Shown here: in pieces, positions 2,649 to 22,635 of the stretch
Position numbering within the stretch: position 1 is the first letter of the stretch
Layout of the letters: each line of letters begins with the position of its first letter
IMG/VR virus record: IMGVR_UViG_3300025626_000116
Span: 1-25,976 of that record
Strand: one strand, 5' to 3'
Origin: a virus
Length of the DNA stretch: 25,976 nucleotides
Position numbers and translations under genes: made by a program
Notes under the pieces: generated by a model
Databases searched by the model: none
What the model was told of the DNA's origin: nothing
What the model saw: the letters and a program-made list of their open reading frames with translations, nothing else

Positions 2649-3086
2649 ATGAATATTGAGATTGGTAAAGAGTATGCGGTATCTCCTAAATGGAAGAAAT
2701 CGTTTGAAGAAAATGAATACTGGGCTAATGACAAAGGTCAGCGCATTACGATTACCACGTTGTGGCGTGGTGGTACAATCAATATTACTCCTCAGAATCA
2801 AGATGAATCTGCTTGGTTATCTCAAGCAGTGAAGCAAGAAGATGATGACACCTTTGAGCCATATTCGTTTGAAGAATATGAATACCAGTCAGCTTGGGAT
2901 GGCATTTCTGTAGATTTGTTCTTTAACGGATTTGATGGTAATACTGATGAAGAGTTAAGCGAAGAATGTCAAAAGCTACAGGATGGGTATGATGAAGAAG
3001 GTACTATGTTCCTCGAGGAAGAGGGGTTTGACGTTGACGATTCCGAAGTATTTATGTATGGCGAACTTGACATAGAAGAAGTTTAA
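2649..3086 (+). CDS. Highly acidic hypothetical protein
   Basis: 145 aa, with Asp and Glu making up roughly a quarter of residues and few Lys or Arg beyond the first 45. The N-terminal third (GKEYAVSPKWKKSFEENEYW and RITITTLWRGGTINITP) looks like a small beta barrel, and the C-terminal half is a long acidic stretch (TDEELSEECQ, EEEGFDVDDSE). Its TAA overlaps the polymerase start (TAATG at 3084-3088), so the two are probably translationally coupled. No family recognised. Acidic phage proteins can be DNA mimics or polymerase/clamp partners; both are speculation here. Confidence 0.7.
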   Translation: MNIEIGKEYAVSPKWKKSFEENEYWANDKGQRITITTLWRGGTINITPQNQDESAWLSQAVKQEDDDTFEPYSFEEYEYQSAWDGISVDLFFNGFDGNTDEELSEECQKLQDGYDEEGTMFLEEEGFDVDDSEVFMYGELDIEEV

Positions 3087-4537
3087 TGAAGTTTTATACC
3101 CATGCCCATGTGCGTAGTAATACAGTCTGCGTTCGTGGGTACAAGAACGGCAAGCGTTTCGATGAGAGGGTTGAATACAACCCAACGCTATACGTCCCAT
3201 CTCGTAAAACATCAGACTATCAAACTCTGACTGGTGAATATGTTGAGCCTATGCCGATGGGCACTATCAAAGATGCTAAACAGTTCGCTAAGAAATATGA
3301 GGGAGTTGATAACTTTAAGATCTATGGCTCAACTAAATTCGCATACGTTTATCTGAACGAAAAGTTCGGCAACGATTATGACGTTGATCAGGTTAAGGTT
3401 GCTAACATTGATATTGAGGTTGGCTCTGAGGAAGGATTCCCCAACCCCGATCTTGCTACTCAGCCAGTCACTGCTATTTGTATATCATACGACCACCCCA
3501 ACGGCAACAAGCGTTATCATGTAATTGGTAATGGTAAGTATGAGCGAACTCGTGACGATGTTCACTACATTGATGCCAAAGATGAGATGCGTTTACTATC
3601 TGTATTCCTCAGCTTTTGGGAAAAACTTGATCCTGATATCATTACTGGTTGGAATATTGAGGGGTTTGATATACCATACTTGGTCAATCGTATCAGTAAA
3701 CTTCTGGGTGAGAAAGAAGCTCGACGCCTTTCTCCATATAATTGGATTAAGAAAAGAGAGATAACCAAGTTCAATCGGATTGAAACTATGTATGAGTTGG
3801 TTGGTGTCGCAACTCTTGACTACCTACAGCTTTACAAGAAGTTCACATATTCTCAACAAGAATCTTATCGGCTTGATCATATTGCCTTTGTGGAACTTGG
3901 CGAGCGTAAGTTGGATTACTCTGAGGTTGAAAATCTACACCAGTTACATAAACTTGACTATCAGAAGTTTATCGACTATAATATAAAAGACGTTGAGCTT
4001 GTCGATCAAATCGAAGATAAGATGAAGTTGATTGAAATGGCGTTGGCGATTGCGTATGATGCCAAGGTTAATTACAACGATACGTTTACTCAGGTTACGA
4101 TGTGGGATGTACTTATACATAATTATCTCATGAGTAAGAATATCGTGATACCGCCAAAGGAAGATACAGTTAAAGATTCTACCTTTGCTGGTGCGTATGT
4201 GAAAGACCCGCAAGTGGGAATGCATGATTGGGTTATGAGTTTTGACCTTAATTCTCTGTATCCTCACTTGATTATGCAATATAACATCTCTCCCGAAACT
4301 ATGGTTGAAGATGAGTTTATGATAGATGTCAAAGTTGATGACATCATTGATAGGAATGTAGATACGCACCCTCACCACGCTATGGCTGGTAATGGTCGAT
4401 ACTTCCGAAAGGACAAGCAGGGATTCTTGCCTGAAATGATGAACAGGATGTACACTGAACGAAAGAGCTACAAGAAGAAGATGCTTGAAGCTGAATCGGA
4501 ACTTGAATTGATTAATAAAAGGTTGGCACAATTATGA
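3086..4537 (+). CDS. 43A: DNA polymerase gp43-type, N-terminal part (exonuclease and palm motif A)
   Basis: 483 aa, family B replicative polymerase of the T4/RB69 type. The 3'-5' exonuclease is intact: Exo I DIE at 109-111, Exo II N190-x4-D195 (GWNIEGFDIPYLVNR), Exo III Y298 and D302 (DYNIKDVEL). Polymerase motif A, DLNSLYP, starts at D387 and supplies a catalytic Asp. The chain stops just after the first finger helix (YTERKSYKKKMLEAESELEL), at the tip of the fingers coiled coil. Motifs B and C are in the separate gene at 4806. TGA at 4535-4537 overlaps the next ATG (4534). With the C part the total is 852 aa against about 900 for T4 gp43, so little is missing. The subunits probably assemble into one enzyme. 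Confidence 0.93.
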   Translation: MKFYTHAHVRSNTVCVRGYKNGKRFDERVEYNPTLYVPSRKTSDYQTLTGEYVEPMPMGTIKDAKQFAKKYEGVDNFKIYGSTKFAYVYLNEKFGNDYDVDQVKVANIDIEVGSEEGFPNPDLATQPVTAICISYDHPNGNKRYHVIGNGKYERTRDDVHYIDAKDEMRLLSVFLSFWEKLDPDIITGWNIEGFDIPYLVNRISKLLGEKEARRLSPYNWIKKREITKFNRIETMYELVGVATLDYLQLYKKFTYSQQESYRLDHIAFVELGERKLDYSEVENLHQLHKLDYQKFIDYNIKDVELVDQIEDKMKLIEMALAIAYDAKVNYNDTFTQVTMWDVLIHNYLMSKNIVIPPKEDTVKDSTFAGAYVKDPQVGMHDWVMSFDLNSLYPHLIMQYNISPETMVEDEFMIDVKVDDIIDRNVDTHPHHAMAGNGRYFRKDKQGFLPEMMNRMYTERKSYKKKMLEAESELELINKRLAQL

Positions 4538-4806
4538 AGAAAGGTGATGTAGTATCTCTGGTCACATTGACTGGTGAGTTTGTTGGTAAGTTTGAAGATC
4601 ATACTTCGGCAGGCGTAAAGTTGAAAGATCCACGCTGGGTTATCCATGGTGAACAGGGTATGGGCTTTGCTCACGGTTTGTGTTCAACAGGTAAGAACGA
4701 CCCAACTGATGTTGAGTTCTTCAGTGGTGGTATTATTTTTGTTACAGAATGTAATGAAGATGTTGAGAAAGCGTATCGTTCAGCAACGAGCGGACTAATT
4801 CTTTAA
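4534..4806 (+). CDS. Sm-like small protein lying between the polymerase halves
   Basis: 90 aa. The first 35 residues (MKKGDVVSLVTLTGEFVGKF, then a turn, then GVKLKDPRWV) fit the Sm1 pattern of Sm/Hfq-like beta barrels: alternating hydrophobic strand, G-E, V-G-K, strand ending in K-D-P. The rest (FFSGGIIFVTECNEDVEKAYRSATSGLIL) has a strand and a C-terminal helix. An Sm-like protein of putative cyanophage origin is known structurally, and I infer kinship from pattern only. It overlaps 43A by 4 bp (ATGA) and 43B by 1 bp (TAATG), so the three are translated as one coupled unit. It has no HNH, GIY-YIG or LAGLIDADG motif, so it is not the endonuclease that would explain the split. Confidence 0.72.
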   Translation: MKKGDVVSLVTLTGEFVGKFEDHTSAGVKLKDPRWVIHGEQGMGFAHGLCSTGKNDPTDVEFFSGGIIFVTECNEDVEKAYRSATSGLIL

Positions 4807-5915
4807 TGACTGATATTGCTGATATGTCTAAAGAACAACTGCTCGTTCAGAAAGCGCAGTTAGTCAAAGATATTAGTAAGTACAAGAACCTACAATTGGC
4901 CAAGAAAGTTCAGCTGAATTCATCATATGGCGCCATTGGAAACAAATACTTCCGCTTCTTCGATGTGAGGAAAGCGGAAGCAATCACACTATCAGGGCAG
5001 TTGTCAATTAAATGGATTGAGAGGAGAGTTAATGAATACCTTAATAAGTTACTTCAAACATCCGAAGCTGATTATGTTATTGCATCGGATACGGATTCTA
5101 TCTATGTCAACTTCGATGCACTTGTACGCAAATGCTTTGAAGAGGGAAGTGACCCTGTCAAGATCGTCAATTTCCTGGACAAAGTTGCAGCTGAGAAGTT
5201 GGAACCTTTTATTGATAAAAGTTATGAAGAACTGGCACGAATAACAAACTCGTATGATCAGAAGATGTTCATGAAGCGAGAAGTTATTGCGGACAAGGCT
5301 ATCTGGACTGCTAAGAAAAGATACATGATGAATGTGTATGATAATGAGGGAGTCCGATATGCCAAGCCCAAGCTGAAGATGATGGGAATTGAAACTGTAA
5401 AGTCATCAACGCCCCAGTCTTGCCGAACAGCACTTGAAGAAGCAATTAATATTATTATGAATAGTGGCGAGTCAGAGGCTCAGGCATTTATATCTGACTT
5501 CCGATCTAAGTTTGAGCAGTTGCCATTCGAAGTTGTTGCGTTTCCTAGATCTGTTTCTGACTTCGGCAAGTACGATGATGGCAAGAAGGATTTGACCATA
5601 CCCAAAAGTACACCGATTCACGTTCGTGGTGGTCTAGTTTATAATCATCTGATTAGAAAGCACGGTCTTGAGAAGAAGTATGAATTGGTAAAGGATGGTG
5701 AGAAGCTGAAGTTCTGTTACCTAAATAGTCCGAACCCTGCTCAACATAATGTAATCAGCGTTATGACAACGTTGCCTAGAGAGTTTGACCTGAGCAGTTA
5801 TATAGACTATGAGACGCAATTTAATAAAGCGTTTCTTGACCCATTAAAAGTTATACTCGAGTCAGTTGGCTGGAGTGATGAGAAGAAGTCTAGTCTTGAA
5901 GGCTTTTTCGGATAG
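4806..5915 (+). CDS. 43B: DNA polymerase gp43-type, C-terminal part (fingers, palm, thumb)
   Basis: 369 aa. It opens with the second finger helix (SKEQLLVQKAQLVKDISKYK) leading into motif B, KKVQLNSSYG at residues 33-42, which binds the incoming dNTP. Motif C is ASDTDSIY at 93-100, with catalytic D95 and D97; the usual YGDTDS has A-S in place of Y-G. The region RYAKPKLKMMGIETVKSST and the C-terminal EKKSSLEGFFG, with its hydrophobic end like the clamp-binding tail of gp43 (LFDMFDF), match T4 gp43 in order. Start ATG 4806 overlaps the stop of the Sm-like gene; no good SD is visible, so expression depends on coupling. A GIY-YIG endonuclease follows 99 bp later. Confidence 0.93.
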   Translation: MTDIADMSKEQLLVQKAQLVKDISKYKNLQLAKKVQLNSSYGAIGNKYFRFFDVRKAEAITLSGQLSIKWIERRVNEYLNKLLQTSEADYVIASDTDSIYVNFDALVRKCFEEGSDPVKIVNFLDKVAAEKLEPFIDKSYEELARITNSYDQKMFMKREVIADKAIWTAKKRYMMNVYDNEGVRYAKPKLKMMGIETVKSSTPQSCRTALEEAINIIMNSGESEAQAFISDFRSKFEQLPFEVVAFPRSVSDFGKYDDGKKDLTIPKSTPIHVRGGLVYNHLIRKHGLEKKYELVKDGEKLKFCYLNSPNPAQHNVISVMTTLPREFDLSSYIDYETQFNKAFLDPLKVILESVGWSDEKKSSLEGFFG

Positions 5916-5946: not shown

Positions 5947-6014
5947 TATAAATAAAGGTGTAGTCCGCGATGTTTCAGCATCCGACTACTCTAATACTAA
6001 ACAGGAGTATCAGC
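5947..6014 (+). promoter_or_regulatory. Late promoter and hairpin leader of the GIY-YIG gene
   Basis: TATAAATA at 5947-5954, then an interrupted hairpin: lower stem TAGTC/GACTA, CGC bulge on the 5' side, upper stem GATG/CATC with loop TTTCAG, and single C on the 3' side. A spacer with AGGAG (6003-6007) then leads to ATG 6015. It has the same plan as the HNH leader at 728-793 on the other strand, with both stems changed by compensatory substitutions and the spacer differing at only two positions. Confidence 0.82.
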
Positions 6015-6635
6015 ATGATATATTTATATGTAAAAACGCACAACGAAACTAATCTCAAATACTTTGGCAAAACAATCAGAGATGATTATGAGAAATATTC
6101 TGGGTCGGGGAAACATTGGAAAAGTCATCTAAAGAAACATGGTAACAACATAAAGACTGTGTTGGTATTTGCCAGTGATGACATTAATGAAATTGAATCG
6201 GTCGCACTAAGATTCTCAGAAGAGAATAATATTGTTGAGTCCAAAGGTTGGGCTAATCTCATACCAGAAAATGGTAGAGATGGTGGTTCTTTATCAGAGC
6301 ATCATACAGAAGGCTCTCGTAAGAAAATGAGTGATAACAGGAGGGGAAAGGTGGGCATTCCAGCAGGTTGGAAACACGACGATGACACGAAGGAACGTAT
6401 GTCCAAAAAAGCTAAAGAGCGTTGCGATCGAATGGGCGCACCTAAAGGAGCTTTTAAAATTGGAAATGTCCCTCACAATAAGGGAACGAATATGACAGAA
6501 GAACAGAAAGCACTCCTGTCTGATCGTTGTAAAAAGCAAAAGAAGCATACATGCGAACATTGCGATAGAGAGTTCGCGGGCGGAAACTTCACCCTATGGC
6601 ATGGTGATAACTGTAAGGAGAAAAAAAATGGATGA
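6015..6635 (+). CDS. GIY-YIG homing endonuclease with NUMOD3 and zinc-finger-like tail
   Basis: 206 aa from ATG 6015, chosen over the in-frame ATG at 5970 because of AGGAG 7 bases upstream and the shared leader. Residues 2-20 (IYLYVKTH...LKYFGKT) are the GIY-YIG core, with IYL and YFG at the GIY and YIG positions. KYSGSGKHWKSHLKKHG and the E-rich helix at about 62-74 match Seg-type enzymes of T4. A NUMOD3-like stretch (SEHHTEGSRKKMS, DDTKERMSKKAKER) follows. The C terminus has a Cys/His cluster (CEHC, then H and C) like a zinc finger. Such free-standing enzymes cut unoccupied alleles and spread between phages. It lies just behind the split polymerase and overlaps the next gene by 8 bp. Confidence 0.87.
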   Translation: MIYLYVKTHNETNLKYFGKTIRDDYEKYSGSGKHWKSHLKKHGNNIKTVLVFASDDINEIESVALRFSEENNIVESKGWANLIPENGRDGGSLSEHHTEGSRKKMSDNRRGKVGIPAGWKHDDDTKERMSKKAKERCDRMGAPKGAFKIGNVPHNKGTNMTEEQKALLSDRCKKQKKHTCEHCDREFAGGNFTLWHGDNCKEKKNG

Positions 6636-9769: not shown

Positions 9770-9777
9770 TATAAATA
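9770..9777 (+). promoter_or_regulatory. T4-type late promoter
   Basis: Perfect TATAAATA box in an AT-rich gap, 33 bp before the ATG at 9810. In T4 this box is read by host polymerase carrying gp55 and gp33 with the sliding clamp. Here it heads the operon of capsid-targeting-like genes. Confidence 0.85.
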
Positions 9778-9809
9778 GGTTATAATTATATTTTAGACTA
9801 AGGCTCGAT

Positions 9810-11144
9810 ATGCATAATTTCAATGAATACTTGACGGAAGCCACTAAACAGTGGTTGGGGTTTGACTCTTTACCGTCAGCAATGAATCCTGAATTGCGAA
9901 GATTCCTCAATCGACTACAGAAAGTAGCAGATGCTGAGTCAATTTACATTGAGCCCAAATACGATTTCAGAAGAGCAAAGACACGTCTAGTCATTAAAGT
10001 GACAGATAAAGCTGCATTGCCTAAAATTGTATCACATAAGACTTTGGTCGGTTATGGCTTCTCCCCTTCTGGTGATAAGTATGTTTCATCTAAGTTGGTA
10101 AATATTGCGCTGACACCATCAGGCGGTATTCGCGGAACTGGTAAACTACCACGGAAGGGAGAAGCGGTAACAATACCGTCAACAGCTGAGCAAGAAATGG
10201 GTTCTGTCGAATACTTCTCAGCTATGTTTAAGAATAAGAAAACAGACCTCAAGCAAATATCTGATGCTGTTGGCTATCCTTTCAGTGCTGAGTGGATGCA
10301 TAACTTTGAGCAACAATATAGAGCATTCAGTTCTAATATGGGCACAGGGTTTTCTAAGCATAAAATATACTTAGATTCAGAGAGAAACGACTCTAACATA
10401 TTATTCGCTCTAGCAAAGAAGTTCGGCTTGACCGATTTGAAGGATAACTGGAACCCAGCTGACATCTGGATTATGTCATTGAACCGATCGCAGATAATCA
10501 GACAAACAACTGATATCACAACTCTTGAAGAATTTAATGCTTGGTTGGCTAGTAAGTATGAGGATAAAGAAATTATTGGTGTCTCGCTAAAGAAAGTATC
10601 TGCTAGCAAGACTGGTAAGTTTGAAACAGTTTCTACAGTCGATCTCCCTGACGTTGATGTTAAAGTAAGTCGTGTATTATTTGACCCATTCCAAAAGAAC
10701 TTTATTCTAGAAACTTCTGGTAACATTACTGGGTTTAATATCAGAGTTGGTTATAAGGCATCAACAGTTTCGAGAGACTCGGATATTCGTATCTACCTTG
10801 AGGGTAGGCAAAAGGGTTCTCAGGTGCAGCTCGGTGCTATCTCTGCTCAATTATTCCCGAAACTAGCATTAGAGAATGGTTATGATATTCCTTCGGATAA
10901 AGTTAAGATTATGAACGACCCGATGAAATATCTGAACACTACGTTGCCAAGATTACTAAAAGACCCAGCAGTAGAGGATAAGGTTTCGCCATTCCCAGAA
11001 TCAGAAATAGCATTGAAAGCTGGTGCGTTTCTAACATACTATCTTGAGATTTTATTAGAAAGCAACCCTGACATACTGAAGAGTTGTTACTACTCAAGCA
11101 CTAAAGTAAATGACTTCTCATCAATTCACTGTAAACTATACTAG
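9810..11144 (+). CDS. Putative capsid-targeted PD-(D/E)XK-like nuclease
   Basis: 444 aa, first gene behind the late promoter. The N terminus MHNFNEYLTEA resembles the T4 internal-protein capsid-targeting sequence (M-x-x-F/Y-x-E-F/Y-x-x-E), with LTE^A as a possible gp21-type cleavage site after residue 10. In the middle, WNPADIWIM (D218) followed by a helical insert and IIGVSLKKV (K261) reads like the D...(E/S)xK half of a PD-(D/E)XK nuclease, and E127/E129 in IPSTAEQE could be the helix glutamate. The D-to-K spacing of 43 is long, so the nuclease call is tentative. The family is familiar to me as an uncharacterised protein of marine T4-like phages. A purely structural core protein is the alternative. 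Confidence 0.6.
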   Translation: MHNFNEYLTEATKQWLGFDSLPSAMNPELRRFLNRLQKVADAESIYIEPKYDFRRAKTRLVIKVTDKAALPKIVSHKTLVGYGFSPSGDKYVSSKLVNIALTPSGGIRGTGKLPRKGEAVTIPSTAEQEMGSVEYFSAMFKNKKTDLKQISDAVGYPFSAEWMHNFEQQYRAFSSNMGTGFSKHKIYLDSERNDSNILFALAKKFGLTDLKDNWNPADIWIMSLNRSQIIRQTTDITTLEEFNAWLASKYEDKEIIGVSLKKVSASKTGKFETVSTVDLPDVDVKVSRVLFDPFQKNFILETSGNITGFNIRVGYKASTVSRDSDIRIYLEGRQKGSQVQLGAISAQLFPKLALENGYDIPSDKVKIMNDPMKYLNTTLPRLLKDPAVEDKVSPFPESEIALKAGAFLTYYLEILLESNPDILKSCYYSSTKVNDFSSIHCKLY

Positions 11145-11151
11145 GATTATG

Positions 11152-11826
11152 ATGCATTCCTTTAAAGAATTTAAACAAGAACTGAACGAAGGTGTAAATG
11201 ACCCTTCAATCTTCAAGGCAGTATTTCTAGCTGGTGGTCCAGGCTCAGGTAAGTCTTTCGTTGTAGGTAAGACTGCGTTGCAAGCGTTGGGGTTTAAGTT
11301 AATCAACTCTGATGATGCGTTTGAAGCAGGTCTTAAGAAAGCAGGACTAACTACATCTCCCGAAGATATTGCTTCGGCTCAAGGTCAAGAGATACGTGCT
11401 GGCGCAAAGGCGCTGACTGGTAGAAAGATGAAGCTGGCTCTCGATGGTCGACTCGGTCTGGTTATTGATGGGACTGGTAAAGACTATGCTAAAATTAAAA
11501 AACAAGTTGACGAACTGCGTAAAATAGGTTATGCTGTTAAGATGATATTCGTTAATACTGACTTAGAAACTGCCCTTGACCGTAATAAAGCGAGGGAGCG
11601 TTCTGTACCTGATAAGATGGTAGAGAAAATGTGGAAAGATGTACAGAAGAATATTGGTAAGTTCCAAGGTCTGTTCCGAAACCGCATGATTGTTGTTGAT
11701 AACTCTGAAGGTTCTGACATTGAGCGATCAACTTTAGAAGCATATAAAGATATTAAAACATGGGCAGCAAAGCCACCTGAAAATAGGATTGCTGCAAAAT
11801 GGATTAAAGGACAAAAGAAGAGGTAA
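11152..11826 (+). CDS. P-loop kinase (zeta-toxin/polynucleotide-kinase-like) with capsid-targeting-like N terminus
   Basis: 224 aa from the second of two ATGs (11149, 11152); AGGA at 11143-11146 spaces better to 11152, and the protein then begins MHSFKEFKQELNEG like the targeting peptides nearby (LNE^G, residues 11-13). Walker A is AGGPGSGKS at 27-35. INSDDAF at 51-57 matches the N-x-D site of zeta-toxin kinases. LVIDGTG (103-109) and a lid with R144, R148 and R150 (DRNKARERS) complete a phosphotransferase fold. Zeta toxins phosphorylate UDP-sugars, while related phage enzymes phosphorylate polynucleotide 5' ends. Substrate cannot be read from sequence. It is 7 bp after the putative nuclease gene and in the same late operon. 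Confidence 0.8.
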   Translation: MHSFKEFKQELNEGVNDPSIFKAVFLAGGPGSGKSFVVGKTALQALGFKLINSDDAFEAGLKKAGLTTSPEDIASAQGQEIRAGAKALTGRKMKLALDGRLGLVIDGTGKDYAKIKKQVDELRKIGYAVKMIFVNTDLETALDRNKARERSVPDKMVEKMWKDVQKNIGKFQGLFRNRMIVVDNSEGSDIERSTLEAYKDIKTWAAKPPENRIAAKWIKGQKKR

Positions 11827-11828
11827 TT

Positions 11829-12179
11829 ATGTATAAATCTGAACATATGGACTGGAATCCGTTCACTTGGAAAAGAGAAATTGACCCCAGACACCATAAC
11901 AATTCAACAAGAATAGATAACCCATTGTATAAGTTGGTTGAGATTGGCGGCAACTGGGAAATACGTCAGATTATAGAGCCATTTACTGGCCAACTAGCAT
12001 TAGCACTTAAAGACGTAAGTGACCGAAACCCCCACAGAGGAACTGAGATATTTGATTATGTCCATGATGCTAAAGAAGCTGCAGCTAGATGGGACTGTGA
12101 TAAGTTTGAATTGGGTTGTGAGCCGCCAAGAGATTGGGAAGAAGAAGAAGAGGATTCAGGCGAAAATGGAATCATTTAA
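11829..12179 (+). CDS. Hypothetical protein
   Basis: 116 aa, starting 2 bp after the kinase stop, with AAGAGG as SD. It lacks the targeting-like N terminus of its neighbours (begins MYKSEHMDWNPFTWKREIDP). The centre (YKLVEIGGNWEIRQIIEPFTGQLALAL) looks like two or three beta strands, and the end is strongly acidic (DWEEEEEDSGENG). No family recognised. Its last 14 bp overlap the next gene, consistent with one transcript. It may be a cytoplasmic partner of the kinase or of the following small protein, but nothing proves that. Confidence 0.65.
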   Translation: MYKSEHMDWNPFTWKREIDPRHHNNSTRIDNPLYKLVEIGGNWEIRQIIEPFTGQLALALKDVSDRNPHRGTEIFDYVHDAKEAAARWDCDKFELGCEPPRDWEEEEEDSGENGII

Positions 12180-12477
12180 GCAGTTTAATGAGTCAGTCAA
12201 AATCAAATGGAAGAAAGTTCCAGATGGATATGGTGCTGGCAATAAAAAAGTATTCAAGCACGTTTCTCCAGATGGTAAGTATGAGATCCGTCTATCTGGT
12301 ATGGATTCTATGAAAAAGAATAAAGATGGTAGTCAGAAAGTAATGCCTACATTGTTCGATAATACCAAAGTAGGAGGTGATATACCTCGTCACCCAGTCA
12401 CCGCATACAGAAATGTAGGAACTGCTAAGAAAGAAGCCCAACGATGGCACGATGAGCACTATAATGAAAAAATTTAA
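12166..12477 (+). CDS. Small basic protein with capsid-targeting-like N terminus
   Basis: 103 aa from ATG 12166, within the end of the previous gene; the frame is open further upstream but ESFKQFNES at residues 2-10 fixes the start by analogy to neighbouring targeting peptides (possible FNE^S cleavage). The body is basic and beta-rich: KIKWKKVPDGYGAGNKKVFKHVSPDGKYEIRLSG, then KEAQRWHDEHYNEKI at the C terminus. It looks like a small DNA- or RNA-associated internal protein, comparable in size to T4 IPs. No family recognised. It overlaps the next start by 14 bp. Confidence 0.72.
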   Translation: MESFKQFNESVKIKWKKVPDGYGAGNKKVFKHVSPDGKYEIRLSGMDSMKKNKDGSQKVMPTLFDNTKVGGDIPRHPVTAYRNVGTAKKEAQRWHDEHYNEKI

Positions 12478-13687
12478 TTCATTCTTAATTGAACAAAAAA
12501 ATACACATATGACGCATCTTGAGGATGCTGTACTTTATGGGGGTGTAACTGGTGCGAGACAAGCTATTAACCTGCTTCGATCTATGCGTGACATGTTGTC
12601 TGGTAGTTCTAGCCGTGGCGTTTCTACTACTGTTAAATGGGACGGTGCTCCTGCTATCTTTGCTGGTCAAGATCCGAGGGATGGGCAATTCTTCGTGGCG
12701 AAAAAAGGGGTCTTCAACAAGAACCCCAAGATCTATAAAACCGCTGATGAAGTAGATGCTGATACTAAAGGTGATCTAGCAGCTAAACTGAAGCTGGCTC
12801 TGAAACATTTACCTGCCCTTGGAATTACTGGTGTGGTTCAAGGTGACTTCTTGTTCAGTAAGAGCGATTTAAAGAACGAAACGATAGATGGCGAAAAGGT
12901 TACTACATTCCACCCTAATACAATTGTATACTCTGTTCCTAGTAAATCAGAGATGGGCAAAGCCATTCGGTCGGCTAAGATCGGTATTGTTTGGCATACT
13001 GTTTATAGCGGTTCATCTTTTGAGACTATGACAGCTTCGTTCGGTGAGAAGATATCTGAGAAGCTGACAAAGTCATCTGATGTTTGGTTTGTTGACCCTG
13101 AGTTCACTGATATTTCTGGTAAGGCTACATTTACTGAGAAAGAAACTAAAGCTGTGACCAAGTCAATTAGTAATGCTGGTAAGATATTCCGTAAACTAGA
13201 CTCAGCTACTATGAATGCTATCTCTAGCAACCCAGAGCTGATTCGACAAATTACAGTTCACTTTAATACTAAAGTAAGAGCAGGGCAAAAGATAACTAAC
13301 GTAAGTTCTCATGTTCGTGATCTTGTCAATCATATTACTGGGTTCTATGCAAAAGAAGAAGGCAAGCGTAAGACTGCGAAGGGCAAGAAAGTTCAGACTG
13401 ATAAGCGTGACGAGATACTGAAGTTCTTTTCTAACGCTAACAAGACTAACTTGCAGAATATCTTTCTAATGATGAATGAGTTGATTGACGCAAAAGAAGC
13501 AATCATCAAGAAAATGGATAAAGCCAGCAATATAGATACGCTACTTAGAACTGCTGATGGATTCCAAGTAACTGCCCCAGAGGGTTATGTTGCTATTGAC
13601 AATGATGGTAGTGCGCTGAAGCTAGTGAATAGAATGCAGTTCAGCCATGCTAACTTCTCTGACAATTATATAAAAGGTTGGAGTTAA
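12464..13687 (+). CDS. DUF6267-type protein, putative ligase-fold nucleotidyltransferase, capsid-targeting-like N terminus
   Basis: 407 aa from ATG 12464. MKKFNSFLIEQ gives a targeting-like peptide with LIE^Q. The signature HMTHLEDAVLYGGVTGARQA belongs to a family very common in cyanophages and pelagiphages (DUF6267, from memory) that carries no function. I see covalent nucleotidyltransferase motifs in order: motif I KWDG at 58-61 (K58 would carry AMP), a motif III-like GDFLF at 127-131, motif IV EGYV at 373-376 and motif V LKLV at 385-388. Residues about 190-370 would be an insert. This fits an RNA/DNA ligase or capping-type fold. Next to the P-loop kinase it suggests a heal-and-seal pair. 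Family membership is strong; ligase activity is inferred. Confidence 0.78.
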   Translation: MKKFNSFLIEQKNTHMTHLEDAVLYGGVTGARQAINLLRSMRDMLSGSSSRGVSTTVKWDGAPAIFAGQDPRDGQFFVAKKGVFNKNPKIYKTADEVDADTKGDLAAKLKLALKHLPALGITGVVQGDFLFSKSDLKNETIDGEKVTTFHPNTIVYSVPSKSEMGKAIRSAKIGIVWHTVYSGSSFETMTASFGEKISEKLTKSSDVWFVDPEFTDISGKATFTEKETKAVTKSISNAGKIFRKLDSATMNAISSNPELIRQITVHFNTKVRAGQKITNVSSHVRDLVNHITGFYAKEEGKRKTAKGKKVQTDKRDEILKFFSNANKTNLQNIFLMMNELIDAKEAIIKKMDKASNIDTLLRTADGFQVTAPEGYVAIDNDGSALKLVNRMQFSHANFSDNYIKGWS

Positions 13688-13693
13688 AACTTT

Positions 13694-13701
13694 TATAAAT
13701 A
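13694..13701 (+). promoter_or_regulatory. T4-type late promoter
   Basis: Perfect TATAAATA 7 bp after the DUF6267 gene stop. Transcription would begin just ahead of the folded leader at 13707-13815, giving the nucleotidyltransferase and core genes an additional late start. Confidence 0.85.
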
Positions 13702-13706
13702 GCATG

Positions 13707-13815
13707 TAAGTAGAGTGATATGGGGCGTATCACTTAATATAGACCACCCACTAAAGTCGGTTATAGTCTACTTATTGAGTTTGGTCCACTATAGAGACCC
13801 GCATTGGTTCATGCG
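13707..13815 (+). ncRNA. Structured RNA leader: three-way junction plus two hairpins
   Basis: Closing stem P1 TAAGTAG (13707-13713) with CTACTTA (13768-13774), 7 perfect pairs. P2 AGTGATA (13714-13720) with TATCACT (13728-13734), 7 perfect pairs around loop TGGGGCG. P3 TATA-g-ACC (13738-13745) with GGTTATA (13759-13765). Loop 2 TGGG can pair with CCCA (13747-13750) of loop 3, a kissing interaction. Then GGTC/GACC (13783-13786, 13796-13799) and CGCAT/ATGCG (13800-13804, 13811-13815) follow, and the SD of a 27-codon ORF. TAGAC (13740-13744) with GTCTA (13766-13770) is an alternative pairing that excludes P1. The layout resembles a riboswitch or ribosome-protein leader. Ligand unknown. Confidence 0.6.
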
Positions 13816-13851
13816 TTAAAAGAATCGTATAATCCGAATAGGAGAAATGCG

Positions 13852-13935
13852 ATGAGTTACGAACTAACTTACAGAGGTGTTAAATACACCAAGCAAGTTA
13901 AATCAACTTCAGGCGTTAAGAAAGCGTCTAAGTAA
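13852..13935 (+). CDS. 27-aa peptide with DUF4278-like YRG motif
   Basis: Starts ATG 13852, with AGGAG at 13840-13844 spaced ideally, and ends TAA 13933-13935. The front ELTYRGVKYTK matches the short L-T-Y-R-G-x-x-Y motif of DUF4278 peptides, which I recall mainly from cyanobacteria and their phages. The rest is basic (KQVKSTSGVKKASK). It follows the folded leader directly. Structured RNAs upstream of such short peptides are known in cyanobacteria and cyanophages (the 'downstream-peptide' class), but the conserved core of that class is not evident here. It might be a leader peptide or a functional small protein. Confidence 0.7.
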   Translation: MSYELTYRGVKYTKQVKSTSGVKKASK

Positions 13936-13943
13936 TTTAACTG

Positions 13944-13969
13944 GAGAAGGGGGCTGCCATAGTGTCCCC
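13944..13969 (+). promoter_or_regulatory. G-rich hairpin between the peptide and the nucleotidyltransferase gene
   Basis: A purine stretch (GGAGAAGG) runs into GGGG (13950-13953), which pairs with CCCC (13966-13969) around a 12-nt loop; GTGT (13962-13965) with ACAC (13974-13977) is an alternative. No U-tract follows. It fills the 64-bp gap before the weakly SD-led ATG at 14000 and may control translation or protect RNA ends. Confidence 0.35.
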
Positions 13970-13999
13970 ACTTACACGTTAAGCCCACGGGAAACACGT

Positions 14000-16168
14000 A
14001 TGAAGAAAGTAGTATTTACATTTGGCAGACTTAATCCACCTACAGTCGGTCATCAAAAGCTAGTCGATAAAATCACATCTACTGCTAAGAGAGAAAAAGC
14101 TGATGCTAAAGTCTTTCTTTCTCATACACAGAATAATAAGAAAGATCCGCTCAACTATGCCGAGAAGATTCGGTTTGCCCGCAAAGCATTTGGTACGGTT
14201 ATTGAGCAATCTAACTCTAAAACTATAATTCAAATCCTACAAGAACTCCAAAAGAATTACACTGATATTGTATTGATCGTTGGCTCTGACCGAGTCAGTG
14301 AGTTTAGCGGTCTGTTAAACAAATACAACGGTGGTCCATTTGAGTTTGATTCAATTGACGTTCGTTCAGCTGGAGCTAGAGACCCAGACGCAGTTGGCGT
14401 TGCTGGTATGTCAGCATCAAAACTAAGAGCGTTGGCAATCCAAGGTAAATTTGATACATTTAAGACTGGGTTGCCTAAGAAGTTGAGCGACTCCGATGCC
14501 AAGGATTTGTACGACACTATCCGATCAGTAATTAAAGAAGATCTAGATGAGCAGAAGAAGCCATTATCTATATCTCAGCGTAAGGCTATCGGTCGAAGAA
14601 TGAAGCGCCTTGCTCCCAAGTTACAGCGCATTAAGAAGATGAAAGCCAAGAAGATGGCTGATGCTAAGACTATTCAAAAGCGAGCGCAAAAGGCAGCAAT
14701 TAAACTTATTAGAAAGAAAGTTGCAGGAAAGAAAGGTCAAAATTATGCCAATCTGACTCCTGGCGATAAAATGAATGTCGACAGACTAGTGGCTAAGAAG
14801 TCAGCGATTATACAAAAACTAGCTAAGAAACTAATTCCTGCTACACGCAAGAAGGAGATAGCGAGATTGAAATCACAAAGAGGTTCAAAGAATGAGAATT
14901 TTGATGCGATATTCGAATCAGTTATACTCGAGCGCCAAGACTCAGATATTAAGGATAGAGAAGGCAGTCAGCCTGCGAAGTACCATAGCGGTTTGGCTAA
15001 GTCAACTAAGACTAAGCGTGATTCGCAATTCCAGAAAGGCGCAGAGAAAGATTCAGGTGATCCGAGCGCATATCCTGATAAGCATGTGGGTGATTCTGAT
15101 GCTAAGACACGTACTTCCAAGCATACTAAGAAGTATCGTCAAATGTTCGGCGAGAAAGAAGTTGACCAAGTAAAAGCTAGAATTGAAAGAGAGAAGGCTT
15201 CCGATAAGAAAAAGCATGACCGCATGATGGATCGTGCCAGAACTACTGATACTAAAGATAAGAATCAGCAAACTGAGGCTCTAAAGAATCCATATAAAGG
15301 TAAGGGCGATAGGGACTTAAAGCGTAAGCTGGCTTCATTTGAATCTCAACTGGCTGACTTAATTAAAAAGAGTCGAGGTCGTCAGCGTAAAGATATCGAG
15401 GGCGAAATCCGAGATATGGAAACAAAGGTTCAACAAGTAAGGTCTGCCCTGAAAGAAGAATTTAGCTTCGACCTTACAGAAAACGCTAAAGCAGCTCTGA
15501 TGAAGAAAGCTGATAAATCTGGTATGCCATATGGTATCTTGAAAAAGGTATATGATCGTGGCATGGCAGCGTGGCGTACTGGTCATCGTCCAGGTGCTAA
15601 CCAACAGCAATGGGCATTTGCTCGAGTTAATAGTTTCGTTACTAAAGGTAAGGGGACTTGGGGTAAAGCTGATGCTGACTTGGCTGCCAAGGTTCGAGGT
15701 TCTAAAGCTGAATCTGTCAATGAAGAAATGGATCCTAGAGATCATGTCAAAGAAAAGGATGGCAAGTTTTGCGTTTACAACAAAGATGGTGAAGTTGTAA
15801 AAGAATTCGATAAAGAAGAAGACGCTAACAAGTATGCTATTGCTAATCATGACAGCCTGATGGAATCAAAGATGAGTGATGACATTGATAAGGTCAAGGC
15901 TAAGACTATACAGAAGAAGCGTTATACAGCTGCAGCTAAAATCTTGAAGGATATTATTAAGAGAAAGAAAGCTGAAGCGAAGAAGAAAGGTATTCCTGTT
16001 CGTCATGGTAACGAATACTATGCTGGCGTAGTTGCTAAGCAATATGACGTGAATCCTAGAGTTTTGCGCACTATGGCTGAGCAGATGATAGTTGAAGATG
16101 ACAGAGCTGGTGGGTTTGGTTCTGATAAGTTGCGTAAGAAATATCAAAAGGATACTCCTGATGCTTAG
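14000..16168 (+). CDS. HIGH-type nucleotidyltransferase fused to basic virion-core modules
   Basis: 722 aa from ATG 14000; the frame is open to 13877, but that part overlaps the peptide gene and the hairpin, and the fold begins at KKVVFTFGRLNPPTVGH. N-terminal domain: TVGH at 15-18 and SASKLRALA (about 138-146) are the two signatures of cytidylyl/adenylyl-transferases. Then come a very basic region (about 185-299), a block like DUF5872 (about 314-387, with QPAKYHSGLAKSTKTKR), a DUF5824 block (about 500-568, with GILKKVYDRGMAAWRTGHRP), a short beta block and a basic C-terminal helix bundle. Junctions carry possible gp21-type sites (VILE, LTE, IVE, LME), so it may be cut into peptides during head maturation. 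Substrate unknown. It overlaps the next gene by 8 bp. Confidence 0.82.
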   Translation: MKKVVFTFGRLNPPTVGHQKLVDKITSTAKREKADAKVFLSHTQNNKKDPLNYAEKIRFARKAFGTVIEQSNSKTIIQILQELQKNYTDIVLIVGSDRVSEFSGLLNKYNGGPFEFDSIDVRSAGARDPDAVGVAGMSASKLRALAIQGKFDTFKTGLPKKLSDSDAKDLYDTIRSVIKEDLDEQKKPLSISQRKAIGRRMKRLAPKLQRIKKMKAKKMADAKTIQKRAQKAAIKLIRKKVAGKKGQNYANLTPGDKMNVDRLVAKKSAIIQKLAKKLIPATRKKEIARLKSQRGSKNENFDAIFESVILERQDSDIKDREGSQPAKYHSGLAKSTKTKRDSQFQKGAEKDSGDPSAYPDKHVGDSDAKTRTSKHTKKYRQMFGEKEVDQVKARIEREKASDKKKHDRMMDRARTTDTKDKNQQTEALKNPYKGKGDRDLKRKLASFESQLADLIKKSRGRQRKDIEGEIRDMETKVQQVRSALKEEFSFDLTENAKAALMKKADKSGMPYGILKKVYDRGMAAWRTGHRPGANQQQWAFARVNSFVTKGKGTWGKADADLAAKVRGSKAESVNEEMDPRDHVKEKDGKFCVYNKDGEVVKEFDKEEDANKYAIANHDSLMESKMSDDIDKVKAKTIQKKRYTAAAKILKDIIKRKKAEAKKKGIPVRHGNEYYAGVVAKQYDVNPRVLRTMAEQMIVEDDRAGGFGSDKLRKKYQKDTPDA

Positions 16169-16475
16169 TTTCAAGGATTTCGTAACCGAAAAAGACAAAG
16201 ACCCTCGACTGGATAAAGCTGGAGTTTCAGGGTTTAATAAGCCAAAAGGAACGCCAAGTCACCCAAAGAAGAGTCATATTGTTGTAGCTAAAGATGGCGA
16301 TAAGATTAAAACTATTCGTTTCGGTGAGCAAGGCGCTTCAACTGCTGGTGAACCTAAAAAGGGTGAGTCTGATAAGATGAAGGCAAAGCGTAAGTCGTTC
16401 AAAGCACGGCACGCTAAGAATATCAAAAAAGGTAAAATGTCAGCTGCTTACTGGGCAGATAAAGTAAAGTGGTAA
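16161..16475 (+). CDS. DUF6321-type small basic protein with capsid-targeting-like N terminus
   Basis: 104 aa from ATG 16161, with AAGGA at 16148-16152. MLSFKDFVTEK gives the targeting-like start (VTE^K). The rest (DPRLDKAGVSGFNKPKGTPS, KKSHIVVAKDGDKIKTIRFG, KMSAAYWADKVKW) matches a short family common in phages and giant viruses that I recall as DUF6321. It is strongly basic (many K and R), consistent with binding packaged DNA. It may correspond functionally to T4 internal proteins. A 60-bp AT-rich gap with SD AAGGA leads to the next gene. Confidence 0.82.
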   Translation: MLSFKDFVTEKDKDPRLDKAGVSGFNKPKGTPSHPKKSHIVVAKDGDKIKTIRFGEQGASTAGEPKKGESDKMKAKRKSFKARHAKNIKKGKMSAAYWADKVKW

Positions 16476-16535
16476 ACACCATTAACAAATAAACTAAATA
16501 GAACACGTTATACTAAAGGAATCAAGGATATACCA

Positions 16536-18101
16536 ATGAAATCATTAAATACAGTCATCCGTGAGATGCATAATAAAGTAGAAGAAACGGTTGACCTTGA
16601 TGAGTCAACTAAAGCGTATGCTGCGTCATTAGAAAAGATGGCTAGTGATAAAAAGCTAAAGAATATCTCTAAGAAAGATCGTGACATTCTGGCTAAACTA
16701 GCTGATATGATGAAGAACGCTAACGAAGAGTTTGAGCTTGATGAAGACGCATTAAATGAAGCTATCGAATCTATTCAGTTAGAGGAAGATTACTTCAAAG
16801 TTCAGTATTTCGGCAAAGACGGTAAGCCAGAAGCTGGTAAAGAATCAAACTTCAAAGACGAAAACTCTGCTAAGAGATATCTAGCTAGAGCGCAAAAAGC
16901 TGTTAAAGTTGGCGAGTACAAGCTATCTAAGGAAAGGGGTAAGTTAGAGTCAGTTGATCTTGAAGAAAACGTAGGCAAGAAAGTCTATGAGAAAAAGGTT
17001 GGCCAAAGTACAGTAAAAGTATTCAAATACTCAAACGGAATGCATTTTGCGTTCTTCGATTCTAAAGGTTATGGCGAAACTAATGTTCAAATTAAGAAGC
17101 TTGACAAAGGCGTTCTTAATAAAGCTGTTAAGCATTTTGACGATAACAAAGGTCTGCTTGGCTCTAGTCTAGATTCGATTTATGAAGAAATCGCTGAAGG
17201 TCTTAATAAGCCATTAGCCGATAAGATCGGGAAACTTACTAAATTGCGCGATAGTATGAAAGGCGCAGAAAGCAGAGAAGTTGGTCGTCTTTTGGTTCAA
17301 TTGCGTAAAGGCGAAAGTGACCGAGTAAAAGGTATTCTTGGCGGAATGGGTAAGAAAACTCAGTCTGCTGTAGCAAAAATTATGGGCGAAGAATTAGAAT
17401 CAATCCAAGAATCTAATGTATTTGGCCACTCAGCTAATCATGGTATCACCGACTCACTACTAGCTGCTGTTAATCGTGTAGTTACTGGCGAAGCTGATGC
17501 TGTTGAGCCTGAAGTTGCTGACCAAAACGAAATCATTGAAGCTGGTGCTGAAGAACTAGGCGAAGCTGCAATCAAAGATGTACAGGGCAAGGATGGTAAG
17601 AAGTATGCTATCGAGCTTCAGAAAAATGGTCGCAAGCTTGCGGTTCGAACCAAGAATCAGTTTGGTGATATTGCCACTATCGACCTGAAGAAAGCTGCCA
17701 AATTATTTGAACAAGACGTTCTAGATAAGCTCGTTGAAGACAATACTAACGACAAGTCTGACGATGGCGAAGGTCTTGATAAAGTTCAGCCTAAAGCTGT
17801 GAAGAAGAAGTTTAAGGATCGTAAAGATAAAGACATCGACAATGACGGTGATGTTGACGATTCTGACAAGTTCTTACACAAGAAGCGTAAAGCTATTTCT
17901 AAAGCAGTCAATCAAGAAGAAGCTGAAGCTGATGACGAGCCTAAAGAAAAAGAAGATAAAAAAGATAAGAAAAAAGGCGCTGAGTCAGTTGACGTTAAGC
18001 CCAAATTAGATGAAGCTGCTTTTAAAGCAAAATATGGTAGTCGCTGGGAAGTTGTACTTGAAGCTACTGCTAACAAATTGGCTATGAAAACTACTAAATA
18101 A
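16536..18101 (+). CDS. Modular acidic/basic prohead-core-like protein with EF-hand/dockerin motif
   Basis: 521 aa. The start MKSLNTVIREM offers IRE^M as a first gp21-type site. Many further (L/I)xE sites recur (LDE 21-23 and 68-70, LNE 73-75, IAE 219-221, LGE 341-343, IIE 333-335, LVE 399-401, LDE 491-493), separating small alpha/beta modules. One module (DYFKVQYFGKDGKPEAGKES) and another (IKDVQGKDGKKYAIELQKNG) look like small beta folds. At 431-445, DKDIDNDGDVDDSDK is a calcium-binding EF-hand or dockerin-like loop that I recall in many marine T4-like virion proteins. Charge alternates between acidic and lysine-rich blocks. This fits a core or scaffold polyprotein processed in the prohead. 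Exact role unproven. Confidence 0.72.
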   Translation: MKSLNTVIREMHNKVEETVDLDESTKAYAASLEKMASDKKLKNISKKDRDILAKLADMMKNANEEFELDEDALNEAIESIQLEEDYFKVQYFGKDGKPEAGKESNFKDENSAKRYLARAQKAVKVGEYKLSKERGKLESVDLEENVGKKVYEKKVGQSTVKVFKYSNGMHFAFFDSKGYGETNVQIKKLDKGVLNKAVKHFDDNKGLLGSSLDSIYEEIAEGLNKPLADKIGKLTKLRDSMKGAESREVGRLLVQLRKGESDRVKGILGGMGKKTQSAVAKIMGEELESIQESNVFGHSANHGITDSLLAAVNRVVTGEADAVEPEVADQNEIIEAGAEELGEAAIKDVQGKDGKKYAIELQKNGRKLAVRTKNQFGDIATIDLKKAAKLFEQDVLDKLVEDNTNDKSDDGEGLDKVQPKAVKKKFKDRKDKDIDNDGDVDDSDKFLHKKRKAISKAVNQEEAEADDEPKEKEDKKDKKKGAESVDVKPKLDEAAFKAKYGSRWEVVLEATANKLAMKTTK

Positions 18102-21589: not shown

Positions 21590-21920
21590 TGGTTGTAGCA
21601 CCTACAAAGCAATAACAGAAGCAGTTACCGTTACGGAAGTTGTACAAGCTAAGATCCCTGTACAAGAACGCCCGAAGCCAGTTAATCTGGACGATATTAA
21701 TTGGTATGTCGTAACCGAAAAGAATATGGATGAATTCATTAGTCGGTTCGAAGAGGAGAATGGTGCGCTGGTATTTTACGCCATGTCAGTCAGAGACTAT
21801 GAGACTCTGTCACTAAATATGGCTGACTTAAAAAGATATATTCTACAACAGAAAGAAATTATTATTTACTATGAAAACTCGGTAGAGCCGAAAAAGGAAG
21901 AAGATGATGAATCAAAATAG
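21540..21920 (+). CDS. o-spanin-like lipoprotein (Rz1-like)
   Basis: 126 aa. The signal sequence MALKNYLIVLSLILLSSGCS ends in a lipobox with Cys19; the -3 position is S rather than L, so the box is slightly unusual. The mature part has a proline-containing segment (PVQERPKPVNLDDI) and a C-terminal coiled region (LSLNMADLKRYILQQKEIII). The gene starts inside the i-spanin gene, +1 frame, 50 bp overlap, which strongly supports a spanin pair. At about 108 mature residues it is larger than lambda Rz1. It overlaps the lipase gene by 17 bp. Confidence 0.78.
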   Translation: MALKNYLIVLSLILLSSGCSTYKAITEAVTVTEVVQAKIPVQERPKPVNLDDINWYVVTEKNMDEFISRFEEENGALVFYAMSVRDYETLSLNMADLKRYILQQKEIIIYYENSVEPKKEEDDESK

Positions 21921-22635
21921 AGCACATACAGCAGCATGGTTAGCAAGAATCGCATACCGAAACGCCAATGGAATTAAAGAAGGGTGTAAGCGGTTAGGGA
22001 TGTCTGGTAAGTTGGTCGCTAAAGATGGAGCTGAGGTTGTTATTGCTAAGAACACTGCCGAACTTTGGTTTGCTTTTCGTGGTACTGAGCCAACTGTGTT
22101 GAATGATGTTCTAGCTGATTTAGATTTGTTTACTCACCGAGCCAAATCTGCTGGTAGGGTTCATGGTGGATTTCAAGATGAGGTTGACGAGATCTGGGCT
22201 GAGTGCCTGAAAGAAATCGACAAGAACGCTAAGTTGAAAAAGCCAAAGGCGATATTCTTCACTGGTCACTCATTAGGTGGCGCTATGGCAACTGTTGCTG
22301 CTAGTCGATGCGGTGCTCAAGAATTGTATACATTCGGTTCACCAAGAGTCGGTAATCGTAAGTTCGTAAATGCTCTTACTTGCCCACACTATCGCTTCGT
22401 AAATAACAATGACATTGTATGTAAAGTTCCGCCTGCTCTGTTTGGGTTCAAGCATGACGGTGAGTGTGTATACTTTAATGCGTATGGCGAGGTTCGTGAC
22501 CTGACACGTTGGCAGCGGTTTAAGGACTTCTTCCGAGGCGTATGGATTGGCTGGTCGCAAGGTAAGTTTTTCGATTCCTTTACTGATCATGGTATAGCGA
22601 ATTATACTGATAATGTAGAGAAACTAGGAGAATAA
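21904..22635 (+). CDS. Class 3 lipase (alpha/beta hydrolase)
   Basis: 243 aa. The catalytic triad is visible: Ser123 in the elbow GHSLGG (121-126), Asp170 in NNNDIVCKVPP and His229 in TDHGIANY. FAFRGTE (57-62) is the oxyanion region of lipase_3 enzymes, and ELYTFGSPRVGN is the conserved strand after the elbow. The enzyme should hydrolyse acyl esters of lipids. No signal peptide is seen, so it would act from the cytoplasmic side or after holin opening. It starts at one of two ATGs (21904, 21907) inside the o-spanin gene, with AAGGAAG as SD. Its position in the lysis cassette suggests membrane degradation at lysis. A virion-borne entry role is the alternative. Confidence 0.9.
   Translation: MMNQNRAHTAAWLARIAYRNANGIKEGCKRLGMSGKLVAKDGAEVVIAKNTAELWFAFRGTEPTVLNDVLADLDLFTHRAKSAGRVHGGFQDEVDEIWAECLKEIDKNAKLKKPKAIFFTGHSLGGAMATVAASRCGAQELYTFGSPRVGNRKFVNALTCPHYRFVNNNDIVCKVPPALFGFKHDGECVYFNAYGEVRDLTRWQRFKDFFRGVWIGWSQGKFFDSFTDHGIANYTDNVEKLGE

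Follow-up and report, generated by a model that had tools for sequence, protein, structure and literature searches.

A probable late operon of virion cargo with capsid-targeting leaders on predicted nucleic-acid-end enzymes in a T4-like virus fragment

Capsid targeting is an established process in bacteriophage T4. Mutagenesis of internal protein III (IPIII) demonstrated that the first 10 residues are enough for packaging, with residues 4 and 7 serving targeting and residues 8 and 10 processing, and a review on T4 has already suggested the loading of various proteins by this route (PMC9026906). Here we analyze a virus fragment of 25,976 nt (IMG/VR record IMGVR_UViG_3300025626_000116, positions 1 to 25,976; the whole stretch is called the window) and in particular an operon of eight genes, all on the + strand, at positions 9810-18101. 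As in T4 IPI, IPII and IPIII, a leader of 10-19 residues with aromatic or hydrophobic residues at positions 4 and 7 and an [L/I]-x-E site is attached to unrelated proteins, and a gp21 protease is encoded in sister genomes. In contrast to the T4 internal proteins, which are small and basic (IPI inhibits a restriction enzyme), the leader stands here on enzymes of ~220-450 aa whose cores are of the kinase, ligase-fold or nuclease-like type. The locus is probably a late operon of virion cargo, in which capsid-targeting sequences (CTSs) deliver enzymes for nucleic-acid ends.

The predicted enzymes resemble the phage RNA repair systems around T4 Pnkp, RNA ligase 1 and the 'Swiss-army-knife' proteins, in that kinase, HAD phosphatase and ligase-fold proteins are encoded together across the relatives of the locus. 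The T4 repair enzymes are made after infection and were without a capsid-targeting leader in the motif scan, whereas several of the proteins described here carry one. Delivery of enzymes from the head together with the phage genome is also assumed for MuF-fused and polyvalent phage effectors, but these travel by fusion to head proteins and not behind a short removable leader. In the cyanophages S-CREM2, S-SZBM1, S-SCSM1 and S-SM1, a cytidylyltransferase from the same operon is found in virions and bears the leader in S-CREM2 and S-SZBM1; the accessible parts of these virion reports name no targeting signal.

To score the leader, we used a strict 10-residue motif, M..[FYL]..[FY][ILVM].E, built from the leaders of DUF6267 proteins (the family of the 12464 product; genes are named by their start position), together with a looser form. 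A T4-type CTS was found at the N terminus of five of the eight operon genes: 9810 (MHNFNEYLTE), 12464 (MKKFNSFLIE) and 16161 (MLSFKDFVTE) matched the strict motif, 11152 (MHSFKEFKQELNE) and 12166 (MESFKQFNES) the looser one. With residues 2-60 shuffled, the eight proteins produced a mean of 0.001 strict and 0.04 loose matches, compared to the observed 3 and 5, and not a single one of 2362 internal positions of the operon proteins matched the strict form. The leader ends in a gp21-type site in 9810 (LTE), 11152 (LNE), 12464 (LIE) and 16161 (VTE), while the 12166 leader (FNES) is without an [L/I]-x-E processing site. The tag scan gave no match for the 11829 product and the nucleotidyltransferase encoded at 14000, and MKSLNTVIRE of the 16536 product, with Val at position 7, is neither a strict nor a loose match.

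A comparison of 31 distinct DUF6267 leaders from IMG/VR loci revealed F at position 4 in 30 of them and Y/F at position 7, L/I/V at position 8 and E at position 10 in all 31, the other positions being free. This conservation agrees with the IPIII mutant map at every functional position (4, 7, 8 and 10). T4 IPIII itself begins with MKTYQEFIAEA, and among 253 called T4 genes only IPII and IPIII contain the strict motif. In the fetched loci of relatives, the strict tag occurs on 226 distinct open reading frames (ORFs) in ~30 sequence clusters, many of them unrelated; a few singleton clusters are probably chance matches. The carriers include DUF6267, the nucleotidyltransferase, the 9810 family, the kinase, HAD phosphatases, further PD-(D/E)XK-like proteins and small proteins, with strict tags on the 12166-type small protein in 7 relatives (e.g. 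MKSFKEYITEG). A cultured relative, Methylophilales phage Melnitz, has leaders on its nuclease (MQGFKTFLSE), DUF6267 protein (MINFSKYITE) and kinase (MKTFAELQE). The kinase leaders of relatives differ in length and sequence, but an [L/I]xE directly in front of the kinase core is present in 17 of 20 (L/I at P3), with E at P1 in all 20, and the junction is kept even in fusions behind the nucleotidyltransferase protein, which fits a retained protease site. Fusions of the kinase behind a longer protein, with an [L/V]xE junction followed by G, were seen in loci L038, L055, L057, L084, L176 and L209, and the partner in L038 is recognisably of the nucleotidyltransferase/DUF5824 type. The window is a fragment that does not contain the T4-type head genes; a gp21-type protease (PF03420) was identified in six of seven relatives searched, namely the sister genomes G001 and G002 as well as G003, C48C1, HTVC008M and S-CREM2, and was not found in G004.

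For S-CREM2, 52 proteins were detected in purified virions (PMC10665884). The strict motif is present in 5 of the 219 S-CREM2 coding sequences, and four of these five belong to the virion proteins (Fisher P 0.012; 0.0012 without the 26 structural and lysin proteins). The tagged virion proteins include a SAM (S-adenosylmethionine) hydrolase, an APH/ChoK-like kinase and a cytidylyltransferase. The hydrolase and the kinase (OR473000, 3837-5081 and 10579-12846; L235, L228) have the leaders MKDFDSFLEE and MKRFDAFLTE, and a SAM hydrolase carried in the head would be an anti-restriction cargo ready for use. In a Cas9-like S-CREM2 virion protein, the motif lies ~17 residues from the N terminus because the candidate start codon is CTG; a TTG start placing the leader at residue 1 was rejected. 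ORF156 of S-CREM2 (L105:16013-16726) is likewise present in virions and has a Pol-beta nucleotidyltransferase domain (NTP_transf_2, 3.4e-4); its gene is separated by one other gene from that of the tagged cytidylyltransferase, and it is possibly of the ligase-associated kind. The cytidylyltransferase of S-SZBM1, also present in virions, begins with MRFRQFIIEA, and the cyanophage cytidylyltransferase T4-GC190 was detected in S-SM1 virions (PMC3037559); the T4-GC190 protein of P-SSM4 begins with MKKFSAFLKEA. The DUF6267 proteins of S-CREM2 and S-SZBM1, both tag-less, are absent from the two virion lists, and neither list contains the ligase-fold protein, the PNK-type (polynucleotide kinase) enzyme or the nuclease.

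Upstream of the operon, ~33 nt 5' of the first gene, lies a T4-type late promoter, TATAAATA (9770-9777, + strand). The element is kept in 22 of 22 first-gene relatives, starting 40-48 nt 5' of the start codon between diverging flanks, and this conservation supports the term 'late operon'. An initial annotation of the sequence had proposed such a late operon with six similar leaders of the T4 capsid-targeting type. The late character is supported by the promoter, and the capsid-targeting assignment, strongly, by the match to the IPIII mutant positions, the specificity within T4, the virion proteomes, the many tagged families and the [LI]xE kept before the kinase; as to the number, five leaders hold (three strict, two looser) and the sixth, MKSLNTVIRE, is weak.

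The enzyme assignments made at the same time fared similarly: the ligase motifs, the P-loop kinase with zeta/PNK features and the HIGH-type nucleotidyltransferase were recovered by our analyses, including the structure prediction suggested for the ligase, whereas the PD-(D/E)XK-like protein found agreement in its residues, conserved in cyanophage relatives, but no confirmed fold in its predicted structure. The ligase-like candidate is the DUF6267 protein (12464-13687; PF19782, 1.2e-111; leader MKKFNSFLIE followed by Q), whose gene is part of a longer ORF that begins at 12452 (MSTIMKKF...); in relatives that lack these additional codons, the protein begins at the tag. Its ligase-type motifs I (K58-W-D-G), III-like (Q-G-D128), IV (E373-G) and V (K386) were invariant in 60 relatives. 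The AlphaFold2 model reached a mean pLDDT (per-residue model confidence) of 88.3, with low confidence for leader residues 1-14, and in the comparison of this model with the PDB (VIA structural comparison) 50 of 50 matches listed were nucleic-acid ligases. The best match listed was the Naegleria RNA ligase (Z 8.7, root-mean-square deviation 3.6 Å over 183 residues); REL1, T4 Rnl1 and Rnl2 were also among those listed. A PDB profile search with DUF6267 yielded chance matches only, and the ligase assignment is therefore based on fold and motifs, i.e. the uniform match list and the invariant KxDG, QGD, EG and K. According to the model, the 12464 product has an RNA-ligase-like fold, with predicted activity. 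It shares the predicted core fold, the KxDG motif I, the EG motif IV and the motif V lysine with the RNA ligases (Naegleria Rnl, T4 Rnl1/Rnl2, trypanosome REL1), but differs from them by an identity of only ~12%, a helical insertion (~residues 225-352) before motif IV and a single motif V lysine, the motif reading K-L-V instead of KxK with the second lysine missing. DUF6267 occurs in 339 phage records, is far more conserved than the neighbouring gene and stands recurrently beside enzymes that typically accompany RNA ligases (a kinase, a HAD phosphatase or a nucleotidyltransferase).

The tagged kinase (11152-11826; MHSFKEFKQELNE followed by G) exceeded the Pfam gathering cut-offs for AAA_33 (3e-12; 47.5 bits vs 27) and Zeta_toxin (4e-12; 46.4 bits vs 22.3) and also matched phrog_505, a polynucleotide kinase family (3.6e-9). 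An NSD motif is conserved, but the arginine that follows the catalytic Asp of Pnkp by three residues is not there in the 11152 family. Judged by its family matches, the protein is a P-loop kinase of the zeta/PNK type, with nucleic-acid ends as a candidate substrate.

The first gene of the operon encodes a tagged putative PD-(D/E)XK nuclease of 444 aa (9810-11144; MHNFNEYLTE followed by A; phrog_1462, 2.3e-20). The residues NPxD...G[VI]SLK aligned with four cyanophage relatives of the T4-GC419 type, and these conserved residues make a PD-(D/E)XK nuclease probable. The S-SZBM1 protein does not align at NPxD or G[VI]SLK, the AlphaFold2 model of the 9810 product was unusable (pLDDT 42, alignment with 16 close relatives), its PDB profile search gave no match, and the first-gene proteins of HTVC008M, S-SZBM1 and C48C1 matched no nuclease family in Pfam. 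The slot upstream of DUF6267 is hypervariable, with 21 clusters of proteins of at least 240 aa. Thirteen of the 21 show a PD-(D/E)XK-like pattern, which matches 25% of control proteins and is hence used as an enrichment only. In some relatives a HAD_SAK_1 ('Swiss-army-knife') RNA-repair phosphatase is located directly upstream of DUF6267, with tags on three of the five proteins of the cluster. An untagged isocitrate lyase (PF00463, 8.7e-112) occupies the same position in phage locus L065:2820-4097 and belongs to a cluster of five distinct proteins.

The nucleotidyltransferase gene, with its start corrected to 14000 (14000-16168), encodes a HIGH-type enzyme with basic and DUF5824 segments (phrog_3041, 1.6e-87; DUF5824, 4.1e-19), which is untagged in the window and tagged in relatives. 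Fusion to DUF6267, or a position next to it, is common (phrog_455). Internal [LI]xE sites are overrepresented in the 14000 product (9 vs 4.3 expected, P 0.02), as they are in the 16536-18101 product with the weak leader MKSLNTVIRE (14 vs 6.5, P 0.004); the tagged enzymes and controls showed no such excess. Both are possibly polyproteins that the prohead protease processes. The extra sites of the 14000 product fall between domains that form separate tagged genes in phage C48C1.

By computation, the tags and the late promoter, the ligase fold of the 12464 product, the family of the kinase and a gp21 gene in sister genomes are established, and from these a delivery route can be proposed. Late expression would produce the tagged enzymes alongside the head proteins, and the aromatic or hydrophobic residues 4 and 7 would dock them in the prohead core. 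A gp21-type protease would then cut after [L/I/V]-x-E, leaving the mature enzymes in the head until they exit with the DNA into the host at infection; their action after entry is the weakest step of the proposal. Packaging and cleavage of the tagged proteins in the phage of the window are in our view likely. Several points weigh against the delivery of functional enzymes. Two strict-tagged proteins of S-SZBM1 (_191, MKSFKSFLSES; _192, MKTFKQYITEA) are absent from its shallower list of 30 virion proteins, and the S-CREM2 authors allow that carried-over enzymes are contaminants (PMC10665884). We infer the packaging of the ligase, kinase and nuclease, since the literature search found no virion proteome for the phage of the window, a close relative, or a relative with one of these proteins in tagged form. 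The cyanophage ligase-like and nuclease-like proteins examined carry no tag, and delivery is therefore not essential to their role; judging from the sequences, the cyanophage ligase-like protein has lost the tag or never had it. With Foldseek alone, no PDB match to the 12464 model fell below E 0.18, and a Z of 8.7 is moderate. Moreover, with one lysine in motif V, catalysis is not assured. Finally, the operon follows the DNA replication genes (uvsX, gp41) in most relatives examined, which suits a role in replication or repair as well.

A joint action of the enzymes on the ends of nucleic acids during entry, in RNA repair or counter-defence most likely, is a more tentative proposal with somewhat less than an even chance. 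In favour of RNA repair are the ligase-like fold, the PNK-type character of the kinase, the HAD_SAK phosphatase nearby and published work on RNA repair by phages (PMC7824862), and an 'injected heal-and-seal' function is plausible. The most specific version, in which some T4-like phages pack a repair kit with removable leaders (ligase, polynucleotide kinase, nucleotidyltransferase, in some a HAD phosphatase, plus a swappable nuclease) and inject it to heal and seal broken tRNAs or phage DNA ends before phage gene expression, pre-empting abortive defences, is doubtful. A serious contender, although also short of even odds, is that the tags are real and the cargo consists of unrelated weapons: diverse nucleases would be directed on entry at the DNA of the host or of rival phages, and the ligase-fold protein and the kinase would each have a role of their own, such as modification of a host factor or protection of the ends of phage DNA. 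Independent weapons of this kind fit the hypervariable nuclease slot about as well as RNA repair does, given the enrichment of PD-(D/E)XK-like clusters (13 of 21 vs 25%) and the untagged unrelated genes in some slots, such as isocitrate lyase. The kinase is as near to zeta toxins as to PNKs, and the S-CREM2 cargo is mixed (SAM hydrolase, APH/ChoK kinase, Cas9-like nuclease); the far stronger conservation of DUF6267 compared to its neighbour and its recurrent partners, on the other hand, speak for a joint function.

NAD metabolism offers another explanation, in which the nucleotidyltransferase is a nicotinamide mononucleotide adenylyltransferase (NMNAT) and the cargo would replenish NAD+ upon entry to counter defences that deplete it, with the ligase-fold protein using NAD or serving as an accessory. 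NMNAT-like proteins have repeatedly been reported in cyanophage virions (PMC10665884, PMC9602691), and the frequent linkage to DUF6267 (phrog_455) would suit this idea. However, the NMNAT model matches are weak (TIGR00482, 0.005, far below the cut-off), and the family searches of the operon genes revealed neither a nicotinamide phosphoribosyltransferase nor another NAD enzyme, which renders this explanation improbable. Still less probable are ordinary replication or repair proteins made in the infected cell, with the leader as a shared peptide that docks them to a different complex and with the homologues in virion preparations as contaminants. The position after uvsX and the gp41 helicase, the leaderless DUF6267 and nuclease proteins of the cyanophages examined and the contamination allowed by the S-CREM2 authors would all be accommodated. 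Against this stand the agreement of the leader with the T4 CTS at all four functional positions, its restriction to IPII and IPIII in T4, its association with virion detection in S-CREM2 and the TATAAATA promoter ahead of the operon.

A literature search, which covered few subscription journals, found no report of T4 capsid targeting applied to marine T4-like phages or of ligase, kinase or nuclease cargo. A leader that is readable from sequence would provide a predicted list of injected proteins among the 'hypothetical' genes of abundant marine phages. It may also account for the presence of SAM hydrolase, kinases and nucleotidyltransferases in virions of cyanophages, where the authors of one study were unable to distinguish them from contaminants. 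Confirmation of the ligase-fold, kinase and nuclease cargo would show phages to be capable of bringing in enzymes for nucleic-acid repair or attack as soon as they enter the cell, and counter-defence at time zero could then be tested directly.

The remaining operon genes encode small proteins. The untagged 11829-12179 product had no significant match in family searches, and it is followed by the tagged product of 12166-12477 (MESFKQFNES). The small basic protein of 16161-16475 (MLSFKDFVTE followed by K; phrog_7595, 2e-42) has the strict tag and a weak similarity to a minor head/DNA pilot protein family (1.8e-4). Rfam and tRNA scans of the window, as well as a near-identity search of the window against phage records, gave no match. 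Upstream of the operon, a T4-type replication block includes uvsX (6943) and a DnaB-type helicase (8247). The DNA polymerase is split into two ORFs (3086-4537 and 4806-5915), for which an intron, an intein or an assembly error are candidate causes, and a GIY-YIG-like ORF is located just downstream (5970-6635). An HNH-like ORF on the - strand (203-727) ends in many near-identical 'GRKHSEETRKKI' repeats, and the late genes of the window include a lipase-like alpha/beta hydrolase with a GHSLGG motif (21904-22635).

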